Assembly: GCA_027618655.1 (NCBI GenBank)
Contig: JAQCEL010000014.1
Coordinates: 1 to 36,575, forward strand
Origin: Pseudomonadota bacterium
GTDB taxonomy: Bacteria > Pseudomonadota > Gammaproteobacteria > Ga0077536
Length of the DNA: 36,575 nucleotides
Reading direction: 5' to 3'
The notes under the pieces were generated by a model. That model was not told the DNA's origin, did no database searches, and saw nothing but the letters and a program-made list of their open reading frames with translations. Every line of letters begins with the position of its first letter. Positions within the stretch are counted from its first letter, which is position 1. The position numbers and the translations under genes are program-made. This document shows, piece by piece, positions 22,194-29,146 of the stretch.

Positions 22194-22829
22194 CTAGATC
22201 CGTACGCGCGAATTTCGCTTAAAGCGGAATCCGAAAGTAACCAAGCCCAAGGTCATAAGGAAAACAGTACTCGGCTCCGGGATGTTAAACCTACCGGAAC
22301 CGGCTAGTCCTTGATCGAAGTTGACTATCCCAGGACCTTGTAGAGAGGGATTGCTTAGATCCCAATCGCCATTGCCATAGGACCGGAATATCCAAGAACC
22401 GAGCGTGCCGCCGACACCACCAGTGCTGGTGGTCTGGTCTGCGAGAAACTCAATTTCAACCGACTGCAACGCCGGCGTATTGGCGTAAGTAGAAATTTGG
22501 CCAACGGCGCTCACGATGCGCGTCGCGAATAAGTGATACAAACCCGATTCGTACTCGAAACTCTGCAGGTTCACGAATCGAGTTAGATAGGCATTGCCTA
22601 AGTCGACACCTTCGACCGAGCCAATGTTAGTACTCCTACCGTCGTCGATATTGCCGACGTGCACGACGCCAAGCGTTGCGGTTGCGAGTGAATTCACTTC
22701 ATCGCAATCCGTACAAATGCCCGCCCAAGTAATCGGAGTGGTTTCGACGAGCAAAATTGCATTAGCGTTTCCAGCCGCGATTGCAACCAGCGCAATGAAC
22801 AAAACAAGGGTGGCTGATTTATGATTCAT
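22194..22829 (-). CDS. PEP-CTERM sorting-domain protein
   Basis: A 211-residue exported protein. A signal peptide (ATLVLFIALVAIAAGNANA) is followed by a secreted body that has only the cysteine pair CTDC, then the C-terminal sorting tail: NIPEPSTVFLM, a hydrophobic helix and RFKRNSRVRI. ATG 22829 is preferred to GTG 22835 for its spacing to AAAGG. PEP-CTERM proteins are processed by exosortase and delivered to the surface or matrix; exosortase itself is not in this window. The body is not recognised beyond being Gly/Ser/Asn rich and beta-like. Confidence 0.85.
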   Translation of the reverse strand: MNHKSATLVLFIALVAIAAGNANAILLVETTPITWAGICTDCDEVNSLATATLGVVHVGNIDDGRSTNIGSVEGVDLGNAYLTRFVNLQSFEYESGLYHLFATRIVSAVGQISTYANTPALQSVEIEFLADQTTSTGGVGGTLGSWIFRSYGNGDWDLSNPSLQGPGIVNFDQGLAGSGRFNIPEPSTVFLMTLGLVTFGFRFKRNSRVRI

Positions 22830-23272
22830 GTTCACATACCTTTGTATTCTGAAATTGCCAGTCGAACGATCAGCTGCGACATGCGCTGCGTTTAACGGCG
22901 TTACTTAATTGGTACGGAGCAATATTCGGGCCAAGCGGCGCAAGACTATGAAAACACACGCGTTGACATTGTTTTACAGGGGCGTTGAGGGCGATTTGTA
23001 AAGAAACTAGACGGACCAATTGCCAATCGAATCACACTCGAACCTTCCCGGATGTACAGGAAACCGGGGTTTCATTTTACGAAACAGTCGCTTAGGACTG
23101 CCTTTCTAGTGTAAAGATTATTGACAGGGCATGCTGCGATCCTAATTTCGATCGAGATCTACACGCCGATCAGCAGGGTGGATGGCGCACAACGCGCGCG
23201 CGCTTGTCGCCTGATCCACGCGCTATGCTGCGTCGGACCCAAGTGCTGGCCAGGCAATTCAGTTGCGCGAAA
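22830..23272. other. 443-bp intergenic region without a gene
   Basis: It lies upstream of the PEP-CTERM gene and downstream of the selenoprotein gene, both on the minus strand. A short GAAACC/GGTTTC palindrome occurs near 23060 but faces no gene end clearly. Small open frames here lack family features. It probably holds the PEP-CTERM promoter and the end of the catabolic operon. Confidence 0.5.
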
Positions 23273-24121
23273 CTAAACGCGGGCCGTTGCTTGTTCCGCG
23301 CGACGCCGATCACCAGCGGCGAGTAGGGCCGCGCGATTGTCGTCGCCGACGTACATAAAGTCGGTCTTCCATTGTCCGTGTTCGTCGAAGGCAAGCGGGG
23401 TCTGAACGGTCGTGCCAGGGATCGTTGTTTCTTCCAACATTTTTAAGGCCGCGGTCATGATTAATTGTTGCGAGGCAAGGTCGTCGGGTCGGCCGCAAGG
23501 ATTGCCGAGTGGGAAATCCGTGAAGACAAATCGTGCCACGCCGCAGTGCTCAACAATGTCTTTGGCCGATCCAATAACAACGGTTGCGATACCGTTTTCT
23601 TCGAGCGTTCGTGCAACCAGACTCACGGTCTGGTGGCAGACGGGTCACAATGGCATGAGCAATGCGATATCGACCCCATCGCGCTGACAAGCGTCGAGCA
23701 CAGCCGGTGCGTCGTGCATGAGCGTTGCGCGATGCGAATAATTCGTCGGCACCCCATAGTAGTGCGTCGCCAGTGAGCCTAAGGTTCCTTTCGCAACGCG
23801 CTCGCTAAGTTGTCGTGCTGGGAAGTAGGAATTGATGTCGTTCGTATGCGTTGCTTGTTTATCCCAAAACAAGTCGTCAGTGAACATGCGTTCGGGTGGC
23901 TTGTGCAAATCGCCAACATGAAAACGCCGCTGTTTCTTCACATAACTCGCATCCGGCATGCTCGTGGTAACAATAGTCACTTTCGATTCTGCAAGTGGTT
24001 TCTTAAGCGGTGAGAAAGGAATAGTGTCGAAATGAGCCCATTCGTAGGGTTTGGTGTAACCGTGCGCTGCGTAGTATTCGCGTGAACGCTGCATGTAGTT
24101 CACTGGGGCAGACTGCGTCAT
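23273..24121 (-). CDS. GrdB-family selenoprotein (TGA-encoded Sec at residue 159)
   Basis: Read through TGA at 23645-23647, the frame gives 282 residues of the glycine/sarcosine/betaine reductase selenoprotein B-like family. Before the TGA it reads GVDIALLMPL; after it PVCHQTVSLVARTLEENGI and then VEHCGVARFVFTDFPLGNPCG. Conserved sequence thus continues in the same frame, and the TGA falls where a UxxC (or CxxC) redox motif is expected. A SECIS-like hairpin begins 6 nt after the TGA. ATG 24121 is chosen because GGAGA precedes it; 24139 is an alternative. In true glycine reductase the B subunit activates the substrate on Sec; this short family is uncharacterised. It is the last gene of the molybdenum-hydroxylase operon. 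Confidence 0.82.
23612..23638 (-). promoter_or_regulatory. bacterial SECIS-like hairpin
   Basis: On the minus strand, ACCAGAC (23634-23628) pairs perfectly with GTCTGGT (23622-23616), extended by TGC/GCA across one C-U mismatch. The apical loop is CGTGA, with G at position 2 and a GU step. The loop begins 17 nt after the TGA, within the spacing expected for bacterial SECIS elements read by SelB. Confidence 0.7.
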
Positions 24122-24179
24122 CTCAACTCTCCAGGTCATTGTGAGCCAGATCCAAGGGTAAGCGCGCGGCGCACGAAAT

Positions 24180-24635
24180 TCAATTAAGCTCTGACGCTAT
24201 TCCCGCGCGTAATGCTGCAATAAATTTATCGTTCATCTTTTCCGCCATTTTGTGCATCACGCCAATGCTAAATTTACCTAAGCGACCCGCGATTTTGATG
24301 TCCGAACTGTAGCTCACAGTTGTCCGATTTTCCTCTAGCGCCGCAATGCTGAGCGAACTCGTTGCGTTCAAGCGGCTCGCACGGCCACCTTCATCCCCTT
24401 GGGTAACATAGGTCGAGAACTCCGGCGGCCGTTCCTCGGTCGTCGTGACGGTGACATGAAAAGTCGTTTTAATTGGACCCGCTTGTAGTTTGATAGCCGC
24501 GCGGTATTTGCCAGGTCCAACAACATCCACGTCTTCACATCCTGGAATGCATGGGCCGACTTTTGCGGGTGTCGTGATGAAATTCCACACTGCCTGCTGG
24601 GGCGCATCGACCGTAAATTCATTTTCAAATTTCAT
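24180..24635 (-). CDS. CoxG-like SRPBCC protein
   Basis: A 151-residue START-like (SRPBCC) protein of the carbon monoxide dehydrogenase subunit G family: ENEFTVDAPQQAVWNFI, then CIPGCEDVD, then a middle sheet and a long C-terminal helix with FSIGVMHKMAEKMNDKF. CoxG in CO-oxidising bacteria helps recruit CO dehydrogenase to the membrane and can bind quinones. Its start overlaps the end of the molybdopterin subunit gene by 11 bp, so the two are coupled. It may tether or assemble the hydroxylase encoded upstream. Confidence 0.88.
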   Translation of the reverse strand: MKFENEFTVDAPQQAVWNFITTPAKVGPCIPGCEDVDVVGPGKYRAAIKLQAGPIKTTFHVTVTTTEERPPEFSTYVTQGDEGGRASRLNATSSLSIAALEENRTTVSYSSDIKIAGRLGKFSIGVMHKMAEKMNDKFIAALRAGIASELN

Positions 24636-26934
24636 GTTTAATAAGTTCGTTCAATACGCGTTCTGGGGTGAGCGGTAAGCGTCTGAGGCGCACGCCGGTC
24701 GCGTTCGCGAGTGCATTGGCGAGCGCCGGTGCCGCGCCAATAATACAAGGTTCAGCCATCCCACGCGCTCCCCACGGCGAATCCGGATCAGGATGTTCGA
24801 ACAAAATTCCGTGCACGACGGGTGGTGCGTCTAACGAACCGGCAATTTTTTAATCCATTAAACTCGGGTTCACTAACTGCCCTTGGTCCCAAACGAGTTC
24901 TTCGAATAATGCGCCACTAATGCCTTGCACCACGCCGCCATAGAGTTGCCCAAGCGCGCCGTCTGGATTGATTACTTTACCGAGATCGGCCGCGTGCCAC
25001 GCTTGCAGCACTTCAACTTGTCCCGTTTGTTCGTCTACTTCAACTTGGATGCCCGTCGCGGCGAAGCCGTAGAACACGCCCCCACCCATTCGAAAACCCA
25101 GCGCTCGCGTTGCTTGTGGGTCGATCATTTGTTCCTGCATGTACCAAGCGTGTTGTCCGATAATGGGTCCGCCGCCCGCATAGAGACCGCGTTGCGCCAC
25201 ATCGGCAAAGCTCAATTCAACTTCTGGAACGCCGCGTAGTCCGACTTTTCCCCCAGGGCGTACTTCGACATCTGCCGTGGCGCATTCGAGCATTTCTGCA
25301 GTGAGTTCAACGATGCGATCTTTGACTACTAAGGCCGCCCGATGAACCGACTCCGATACGCCGTGCGCACCGCGATCGGCAGCTGTGCCATAGTCGTAAG
25401 CCGCGCCGTCTGTGTCTGGGGCAACGATATTTATAGACTCTAGATCAACGCCCAAGGTGGCCGCCGCTACTTGAGCGAGCGCGGTGTCGCTGCCTGTGCC
25501 TAAATCGATGTAGCCCGTACAAACGGTCAATGTTCCGTCTTCAACTAAGCGCACGTTCGCGCTCGAGGAAAATAAGCCACTTTGTTGAACGATTGATGAC
25601 ACGCCAACGCCACGGCGCTTGCCGGGCACCCCGTGGTCGGATTTCGCGCGAATAAATTCCGGGTGATCACGAATACTTGCCAGGCAATCGCCGACCCGAC
25701 ACACCGGTAAGTAGTGGCTACCCATATTCTTGTCACCTGATTGTTTGGCATTTTTAATGCGCAATTCAATTGGATCGAGATTGAGTCGCTCGGCGATTTC
25801 GTCGATCTGACTTTCGCCTGCGAAGGTTGGTTGCATGACGCCAAAGCCGCGCATCGCGCCCGCACGCAATCGATTCGTATAAGCCGCACGACCCACATTT
25901 CTGACATGCGGAATTCGATAAGGGCCGGCTGCTAACAGCACGCTTGCTTCGAGCACGACCGGCGAGAAATCGGCATAAGCGCCGCCATTTAAGATGATCT
26001 CGGTGGAGCGCGCCACGAATGTCCCATCGGCCATAGCGCCAGTTTTCATGATGATTTTGGCGGCGTGGCGCGAGCGCATCGATATCATGTCTTCATCGCG
26101 CGGCAAGATCAGTTTAACGGGACGGCGTGTTTTAAACGCGAGCGCTGCGGTGATCGGTTCGATCGTAATGAACTTCGCGCCGAATCCGCCGCCGACAGCC
26201 GGCGCGATGCAACGCACTTTTGACATCGGCAGATCGAGCGCCAGGGCAACAGCCATCTGGGTACCGAATATCTGCTGCGTTGAGGACCAGATAGTGACTT
26301 TTCCGCTGCCGTCGACTTCAGCAAGCGCGCCGCAGGTTTCCATGTAGACATGTTGAATGGCCGGGACTTCGTACACGCCTTCTACGACCACCTCGCAGAG
26401 ATCCCATGCCGTATCAACGTTGCCTGTTTCAAGTTCAATGTGGGCAACCATGTTACCGCCCGATGGCGAGCTGACGACTCGTGCGTAGTGGTCGAGATCG
26501 TCATGCAAGATCGGTGCGCCATCAGCCAAAGCTTCTTCGGCATCGAATACGGCCGGCAGTTCTTCAAACTCGACTTCGACAAGACGGATCGCGGCGCGCG
26601 CGATTTCCAAACTCTCAGCGGCGACCGCAACCACTGGCTCGCCCATATAACGCACTTTGCCGCGCGCCAGAATCGGTTCATCGCGAAATGTATGGCCGAT
26701 CAAATTCGCTGGCAAATCCTCCGCCGTGATGACGGCTTTAACGCCGCGTAGAGCACGCGCCGCGGTGGTATCGTAAGAGATGATGCGCGCATGCGGATAA
26801 GGACTGCCGAGCAGCGCGGCGTGCAACAGTCGGGGACGATAAATATCCTCCGTGTAGACGGCGCTACCCGTGAGCTTTGCTCGCGCTTCTAATTTCGGAG
26901 CGGATTGGCCGATCAGGTCGTCCAAATCGTTCAC
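24625..26934 (-). pseudogene. xanthine dehydrogenase-family molybdopterin subunit, interrupted by TAA
   Basis: The large catalytic subunit of a three-subunit molybdenum hydroxylase, 769 codons if read through. Landmarks are IGQSAPKLEARAKLTGSAVYTEDI at the start, VGGGFGAKF, and the RGFG loop at GAMRGFGVMQ. That loop is like xanthine dehydrogenase and unlike the AYXCSFR loop of CO dehydrogenase. A TAA at 24850-24852 (codon 695, Tyr expected) truncates it. The lost 74 residues keep perfect family sequence in the same frame, including PWGARGMAEP with the catalytic Glu (728), so the mutation is recent or a base error. The intact end overlaps coxG by 11 bp. A truncated product would be inactive. 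Confidence 0.88.
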
Positions 26935-27404
26935 GATGTGCGCTCGCTTGCCAACTCAATGGCCTCGATGATTTTGATGTACCCGGTGCAGCGACACAGA
27001 TTGCCGCTCAAGGCTTCGCGGATCTGGTCGCGGCTCGGGTGCGGTGTACTGTCCAGAAACGTTTTCGCCACGAGCACCATGCCCGACATGCAAAATCCGC
27101 ATTGCGGCGCGGACACGTCGATAAACGCTTGTTGCACGGGGTGGACTTCACCAGGTTCGCAGAGCCCTTCAATGGTGGTTATTTGAAAGTCGCTGCAATC
27201 GACGGCCAAGCTCAAGCAGGCACTGGTCGGTACCCCATCTCTCAATACGGTGCAGGCGCCGCATACGCCCTGGTTGCAACCGCGTTTGGTACCCGTTAGA
27301 AACAATTGGTCGCGCAGGATTTCGAGTAAGGTGTGTCCTATTTGCACGGCGACTTCAAATCGCTCGCCGTTGATATTGAGCGTCATTAATTCAGCATTCG
27401 ACAT
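26931..27404 (-). CDS. (2Fe-2S) subunit of the molybdenum hydroxylase
   Basis: A 157-residue iron-sulfur protein with the two usual clusters: an N-terminal ferredoxin-like site (CNQGVCGACTV plus a distal Cys in SACL) and a C-terminal helical site (CGFCMSG and LCRCTGY). It passes electrons from the molybdenum site to the FAD subunit. Its stop overlaps the start of the molybdopterin subunit by 4 bp, and the FAD subunit gene ends 7 bp before its start. Confidence 0.94.
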   Translation of the reverse strand: MSNAELMTLNINGERFEVAVQIGHTLLEILRDQLFLTGTKRGCNQGVCGACTVLRDGVPTSACLSLAVDCSDFQITTIEGLCEPGEVHPVQQAFIDVSAPQCGFCMSGMVLVAKTFLDSTPHPSRDQIREALSGNLCRCTGYIKIIEAIELASERTS

Positions 27405-27411
27405 GGGTCGC

Positions 27412-28260
27412 TCAATCCTTTTTCATCGCCTTGGCTTTTTCGAGCGCCGGACCCAACAATCGCGTCACGAGTAAGCGCCGATACGCTGCCGACCCACGTA
27501 CGTCATCAATGGGATCGCAAGCAAGCGCGAGCGCATCGGCAGCGTTCGCAATTTCCGCGCTGCCAATTTGTGTGCCAACTAGCATTTGATCAACTAAAGG
27601 CACGTGAACGGGGGTCGACCCACATCCACCAACGACGATCCGTGCACGGGTGCAAGTGTCGCCTTCGAAACTGCCACAAAAAGCTAAAGAGACAGTGGCG
27701 AAGTCACCATCGCTACGCGCCACTTTGGTATAAGAAGAAACTTCAATTTCAGGATCTCTTTTCAGGGATATCGCGCACACTATTTCGCCTGGCTGCAGTG
27801 CGGTGGTGAAATAGTCTTCGAAGAATTGGTCGGCCGGCACGGTGCGCTGACCCGTAGCGCTGCATATCTCGATGTCAGCGTCAGCTGCAACTAAGGCCGT
27901 CGGATAATCGGCCGCCGGGTCCGCATGGGCAACCGAGCCACCGATCGTACCGATCGCCCGGATCGCCGGGTGCCCGATTTCTTGTGCGGCTAAGCGTACC
28001 ACTGCAAGCCCTCCATTTATCATTGCCGATGACGCGACGACGTGGTGCCGGGTCATGGCGCCGATCCGAAAACCCGCTGCCGTGCGCGCGATCCCGTTCA
28101 GTTCGTTGATATTGCGCAAACTAACTAACGTCGATGGCGTCATCAATTGGGCATTCAACATCGCCATCAATGTCGCCCCACCGGCCAAGCATCTTGCGTC
28201 CTCATCGTTACCAAGGATCTCGAGCGCTTCTTTTAACGTGCTTGGGCAGGCGTAGTGCAT
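27412..28260 (-). CDS. FAD-binding subunit of the molybdenum hydroxylase
   Basis: A 282-residue flavoprotein of the CoxM/XdhB type. MHYACPSTLKEALEIL is the typical beginning, so ATG 28260 is used and the longer frame to 28389, which overlaps the previous gene, is rejected. FAD contacts are AGGATLMAMLN and TIGGSVAHADPAADYP. The C-terminal CO_deh_flav_C-like domain follows with CARARIVVGGCG-type sequence (here CTRARIVVGGCG). It accepts electrons from the 2Fe-2S subunit and hands them on, usually to quinone or another acceptor. Confidence 0.92.
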   Translation of the reverse strand: MHYACPSTLKEALEILGNDEDARCLAGGATLMAMLNAQLMTPSTLVSLRNINELNGIARTAAGFRIGAMTRHHVVASSAMINGGLAVVRLAAQEIGHPAIRAIGTIGGSVAHADPAADYPTALVAADADIEICSATGQRTVPADQFFEDYFTTALQPGEIVCAISLKRDPEIEVSSYTKVARSDGDFATVSLAFCGSFEGDTCTRARIVVGGCGSTPVHVPLVDQMLVGTQIGSAEIANAADALALACDPIDDVRGSAAYRRLLVTRLLGPALEKAKAMKKD

Positions 28261-28294
28261 CTCTTTACTGAAGGTCGTTAAATTTGAACTTACG

Positions 28295-29146
28295 CTACGA
28301 CGAGCGCTGGCGTTTTGACGGAAGTTCAGCGAACCGACCTTCACGACGTTGCTTGCTCGCAAGCATCGCTTCGCGAATTTCGTCGACACTCAGCATGCTC
28401 GCGTTCCACGCCGCGATGTAGTCGAGCCCGTCCGCGGTATTGTGATCTCGCGCGTAGGTGATCATGCGCTTGCAGCCGTGGATCGCGAGCGGTGCTTTAC
28501 TCGCGATCTCGCGCGCGATTTCCATCACGCCAGCGAGCATGCTCGCGTGATCCGGATACACACGATTCACTAAGCCAACCGCCTGTGCCTCGCTCGCCGT
28601 CACTTGACGACCCGTGTAGGCCATCTCGCGTACGAAACCTTCCGGGACGAGTTTAACCAAGCGTGGAAACGTACCGACGTCGGCGGTCATGCCGATATTA
28701 GTTTCAAAGATCGTGAGAAATGCATCTTCAGTTGCGTAGCGCATGTCACAGGCGGTTACTAAATCGACACCGCCACCGATACAGCCGCCTTGAATCGCAA
28801 CGAGCACTGGGATCCGGCAACTTTCCATGCAGGAAAAACTATTCTGTAGACGCGTTACCGTGTCATAGAAACGCGCGCCGTGCTGACGTTTTGCGAGATC
28901 GTCATCGGAACCTACTGCGAGCATTTCATCGTTCTGACCGAATACGCTGACGTCGATCCCGGCAGTGAAATGTGGACCGGTAGATGAAATCACAATCACG
29001 CGCGCTTTCGAATTCGCATCTATGTCTTCGATAATCGCTGGCAGCTCGTCCCAGAACTGCAGATTCATGCTGTTACGTTTATCTGGTCGATTCAAAACGA
29101 CGTGCGCGATGCGATCGGCAATTTCAACTTTAAAGCATTCATGCAT
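28295..29146 (-). CDS. delta3,5-delta2,4-dienoyl-CoA isomerase-like crotonase
   Basis: A 283-residue crotonase-fold enzyme. The three acidic residues of dienoyl-CoA isomerase are present with exact family spacing: Asp in CIGGGVDLV, Glu 20 residues later in FETNIG, and Asp 8 further in TADVGTF. The oxyanion segment is HFTAGIDVSVFG. GAGGAC lies before the ATG. It shifts conjugated double bonds in dienoyl-CoA esters, as needed when unsaturated or ring-derived acids are degraded. It sits between the KynB-like gene (45 bp) and the FAD subunit gene (34 bp) in the same operon. Confidence 0.87.
   Translation of the reverse strand: MHECFKVEIADRIAHVVLNRPDKRNSMNLQFWDELPAIIEDIDANSKARVIVISSTGPHFTAGIDVSVFGQNDEMLAVGSDDDLAKRQHGARFYDTVTRLQNSFSCMESCRIPVLVAIQGGCIGGGVDLVTACDMRYATEDAFLTIFETNIGMTADVGTFPRLVKLVPEGFVREMAYTGRQVTASEAQAVGLVNRVYPDHASMLAGVMEIAREIASKAPLAIHGCKRMITYARDHNTADGLDYIAAWNASMLSVDEIREAMLASKQRREGRFAELPSKRQRSS

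Follow-up and report, generated by a model that had tools for sequence, protein, structure and literature searches.

A PrdB-like gene with an in-frame TGA and a predicted SECIS hairpin: a probable selenoprotein of a gammaproteobacterium

Described relatives and the gene in the window

Marine metagenomes have yielded PrdB-like selenoproteins with a UxxC motif from 2005 onward. They constitute the third most abundant selenoprotein family of the Sargasso Sea set, with 42 genes (PMC1088965), and 235 Sec genes of PrdB with UxxC are counted in the GOS metagenomes (PMC2398784). Both reports share with the gene described here the label "proline reductase PrdB", the UxxC motif, the occurrence of Sec as well as Cys forms and a bacterial SECIS element, but they come without organism-level context. 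Our gene is another member of this known kind and, going by the motif and gene numbers given in these reports, most likely belongs to the very same group; the find is therefore less surprising than the initial annotation had rated it. A 2006 survey encountered a single selenoprotein family in most Gammaproteobacteria (PMC1794560, Table 2), so that the presence of several PrdB-like Sec groups in one bacterial family is unusual. Although these proteins are among the commonest marine selenoproteins, they are labelled D-proline reductase, and the organism studied here lacks a detectable PrdA partner.

Within the window, i.e., the whole stretch of 36,575 nucleotides that was analyzed, the minus strand carries a single 282-codon gene whose sole in-frame interruption is a TGA (Table 1). 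As had been noticed initially, two adjacent open reading frames (23273..23626 and 23645..24139) share a common frame and are split by this TGA alone. With TGA read as selenocysteine, the product comprises 282 amino acyl residues, U159 opens the motif UPVCHQT, and the next in-frame stop is TAG. Family sequence is conserved on both sides of the TGA, as in selenoproteins, and amino acid identity to a relative locus (L033) amounts to 68% after the TGA versus 61% before it, third codon positions being the most variable on either side. The source assembly is a metagenome-assembled genome (MAG) of 4.36 Mb in 327 contigs, 94.5% complete. Rfam at gathering thresholds gives no match in the window, and searches against sequences of solved structures give only chance matches for the protein. 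We consider it probable, at roughly 0.88, that the gene encodes a selenoenzyme which belongs to the PrdB/GrdB superfamily, works on its own and has Sec inserted at UGA159.

Table 1. Features of the predicted selenoprotein locus and its upstream neighbors (window coordinates).
Feature	Position	Strand	Basis
PrdB-like selenoprotein gene, 282 codons + TAG	23273..24121	-	Frame, homology; start of homologue L025 matches 24121
Predicted bacterial SECIS hairpin	23612..23638	-	Stem covariation, synonymous-codon null, folding
TGA, predicted Sec159, residue 1 of UPVCHQT	23645..23647	-	TGA/Cys column, aligned with PrdB Sec
GGAGAG, possible ribosome-binding site, 5 nt upstream of ATG 24121	24127..24132	-	Seen in sequence
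Alternative in-frame ATG	24137-24139	-	Sequence
CoxG-like gene, directly upstream; not conserved beside orthologs	24180..24635	-	Gene context
Molybdenum hydroxylase, three genes (Mo, 2Fe-2S, FAD subunits)	24850..28389	-	Gene context

Standard gene calling terminates the gene at its TGA and, in relatives, may report a long antisense ORF in its place; a selenoprotein family is therefore likely mis-annotated in one gammaproteobacterial family. In the comparison of ortholog contexts, one large neighbor cluster is made up of antisense shadow ORFs that overlie the TGA gene.

Decoding of the TGA codon

Homologues occur in 30 of 58 relative genomes, mostly with one internal TGA, whereas only 8 of 369 genomes sampled across the class have a match; Sec orthologs are also present in Alphaproteobacteria and in one Myxococcota MAG. 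In the translated alignment the TGA column is identical in every Sec member reaching that site, and all homologues reaching the Sec159 column have either TGA or a Cys codon, as the proposed redox U/Cys position would predict. The Sec members comprise the window type (UPVCHQT), two further groups termed P0002 (UPVCHQT) and P0003 (UPLDHQT), and those with UPDCCRS or UPxCTRA; most genomes in the family of the source organism carry the P0002-type paralogue. Within that same family, genes with CPVCHQS or CPLDHQT have Cys in the Sec column, as do copies in genomes of two other families and copies in Roseomonas and Haematobacter. The Roseomonas and Haematobacter proteins, annotated in RefSeq as "Glycine/sarcosine/betaine reductase selenoprotein B family protein", are 43-46% identical to the window protein over 90% of its length, differ from it by Cys in place of Sec and form 4 of the 7 stem pairs where the SECIS would lie. 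A quick tree, in which long inner branches are flagged, requires at least four Sec/Cys changes and places the window gene with Sec copies from its own genus and family. No relatives of the protein are found in phages or viral contigs. In a Rhodospirillaceae MAG (L029), Sec genes of the window type (UPVCHQT) and of the UPLDHQT type lie about 3.6 kb apart.

The selenocysteine machinery, whose absence had initially been named as grounds for refutation, was searched for as recommended and is complete in the source genome: contig 161 carries selA, selB and then a tRNA-Sec gene (selC) with anticodon TCA in one cluster, and contig 324 carries a fusion of selD with a pyridine-nucleotide oxidoreductase domain. 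Among genomes with TGA copies, selA is detected in 28 of 31; since the remaining three are only 81-87% complete, the gene is probably located on missing contigs. None of the three genomes with Cys copies only (G086, G220, and G318) has a detected selA. In another family of the same class, a UPACTRA-type Sec gene is situated about 1.3-2.8 kb from selA (L135, G290 contig 42; L136, G378 contig 123), an adjacency that would fit a transfer of the Sec trait together with a selenoprotein.

Just downstream of the TGA, ACCAGAC (23634-23628) pairs with GTCTGGT (23622-23616) in a 7-bp stem that encloses the small loop CGTGA (23627-23623) and is extended by an outer stem of 3 bp (TGC/GCA). The spacing from TGA to loop is 17 nt, and the second loop base is G, which places G among the first two loop bases as in bacterial SECIS elements; the hairpin proposed in the initial annotation is thereby confirmed in all its parts. 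Its minimum free energy is -16.5 kcal/mol (z = -2.3 versus dinucleotide shuffles), and the window sequence alone forms 7 of 7 pairs with P = 0.038 against a null in which the protein is kept and synonymous codons are redrawn. The strong evidence that the predicted hairpin exceeds chance is comparative and does not come from this single-sequence test. When 34 distinct Sec sequences are compared, 96.6% of the pair cells are kept versus 90.0% in shuffles, a control that is not a probability because the sequences are related; sliding the partner strand leaves at most 34.5%, and compensatory two-sided changes occur in 3 of the 7 stem pairs. When synonymous codons are redrawn for 46 Sec genes of the UPVCHQT type, 6.74 of 7 pairs are observed versus 4.80 expected, while 11 Cys homologues show 4.73 versus 4.27 and all seven pairs in none of the 11, the Sec and Cys nulls having different codon weights. 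Paralogues with UPDCC build the same hairpin from different letters, and those of the UPxCTR type form just 5 of 7 pairs in a fixed register. Folding the entire 51 nt past the TGA separates Sec from Cys genes poorly; the pair count of the fixed 7-bp stem performs better.

Could the TGA simply be a true stop, arising from a nonsense mutation, a pseudogene or a sequencing error, and yield a truncated protein? Translation with Table 11 alone does give two ORFs, and decay of the family does occur in this very genome, where an ISL3-family transposase gene (PF01610) interrupts a UPFCTRA Sec paralogue on contig 299 (L101 10956-13686). However, dozens of homologues, drawn from many genomes and spread over three phyla or classes, have this TGA as well, the part downstream of it is the better conserved one, and the hairpin covaries, all of which makes a true stop exceedingly improbable. 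The selenoprotein reading is supported by the Sec machinery, the TGA/Cys column and the conservation of the hairpin. SelB together with Sec-tRNA would bind the hairpin, causing the ribosome to read UGA159 as selenocysteine; without action of SelB and hairpin, a product of 158 residues would result. On the strength of the comparative evidence, we regard this decoding as almost certain.

Relation to D-proline and glycine reductases

Designation of the protein as "GrdB-like" is loose, as the nearest characterized family is the related PrdB (85.7 bits versus 18-23 bits for GrdB-type models). PrdB of D-proline reductase is about 28-30% identical, carries a TGA-encoded Sec that aligns with Sec159, and continues its UxxC motif with H in the same manner; it reads UGTCHRT where the window protein has UPVCHQT, and a longer N-terminus is among the further differences. 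GrdB, GrdF, and GrdH share a Sec redox motif and a remote homology confined to the C-terminal half of their models, but the window protein is shorter and its scores do not reach the cut-offs of 65-800 bits. A search with PF09338 for the partner GrdE yields no match in the source genome and none in any control genome either.

These resemblances might suggest a working D-proline reductase PrdB, or a glycine/betaine reductase GrdB, engaged in Stickland-type fermentation, given that PrdB (TIGR04483) is the top NCBIfam match (E = 3.1e-24) and that the Sec residues align. The score of 85.7 bits, however, lies far below the equivalog cut-off of 300, whereas true PrdBs employed as controls obtain 310 and 400 bits, and UPVC replaces the UGTC of PrdB. 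PrdA is found neither in the source genome, at its 94.5% completeness, nor in nine relatives, although a control plasmid (W01) is matched with 1.1e-292, and since this pyruvoyl partner is lacking, the protein is not a D-proline reductase. Furthermore, the source genome encodes a heme-copper oxidase and the window a PQQ/cytochrome dehydrogenase, so that an aerobic, respiratory life of the organism is likely. Taken together, these findings make the Stickland-type role very unlikely.

As a stand-alone selenoenzyme of the superfamily, the protein would do without PrdA, the pyruvoyl partner. Judging by its homology to D-proline reductase and glycine reductase, the selenolate of the Sec residue is probably the catalytic nucleophile or the redox group, and Cys162 is likely to act as the resolving thiol. 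One paralogue group (UPLDHQT) has Asp in place of the second Cys of UxxC, and this Cys is therefore not essential across the family. As to the reaction, thiol-dependent reduction of a small, possibly amine-containing metabolite is the likeliest role, to which we would give even odds.

Paralogues in methylamine dehydrogenase clusters and genomic context

In at least five relative genomes (L125 5842-9627, L126, L127, L128, and L129), the P0002-type Sec paralogue directly follows mauD, mauA (PF02975, 1e-50) and a small cytochrome-like gene that has no Pfam match. Two of these clusters have a confirmed heavy chain of methylamine dehydrogenase (PF06433) and one has a confirmed MauE, the order being mauB-E-D-A, the cytochrome-like gene and the Sec gene last. 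No mau-type genes are found in 16 kb around the P0002-type paralogue of the source genome. A selenoprotein in a cluster for a TTQ amine dehydrogenase looks undescribed in the literature searched and, together with the absence of PrdA, offers a tangible clue to what these proteins actually do.

The light chain of methylamine dehydrogenase needs disulfides. The predicted selenoprotein might be concerned mainly with thiol-disulfide work, handling protein disulfides or reducing peroxide rather than a small metabolite; a Sec paralogue group adjoins MauD and this Cys-rich subunit, UxxC resembles thioredoxin-type motifs, and a weak Thioredoxin_3 match (E = 0.052) is obtained below its cut-off. However, the significant homology is to PrdB/GrdB and not to thioredoxins, the UxxD paralogues have no partner Cys, and the mau link belongs to a paralogue and not to the window gene, so that such work is conceivable but rather unlikely as the principal function. 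More speculatively, and with still smaller likelihood, aerobic PrdB-like selenoproteins might form a distinct class of Sec enzymes that need no pyruvoyl partner to act on amine metabolites; in mau clusters, the quinone cofactor could replace the pyruvoyl carbonyl, or the selenoprotein could help to mature the Cys-rich light chain.

Ahead of the predicted selenoprotein gene of the window, the CoxG-like gene, the three-subunit molybdenum hydroxylase, an enoyl-CoA hydratase and an esterase are encoded on the same strand. This association is weak, because same-genus orthologs sit elsewhere, adjoining an M20 peptidase gene, and orthologs outside the genus have no conserved gene partner. A PEP-CTERM sorting motif in the product of the next gene downstream (22194-22835, minus strand) hints that the organism may have an exosortase system.
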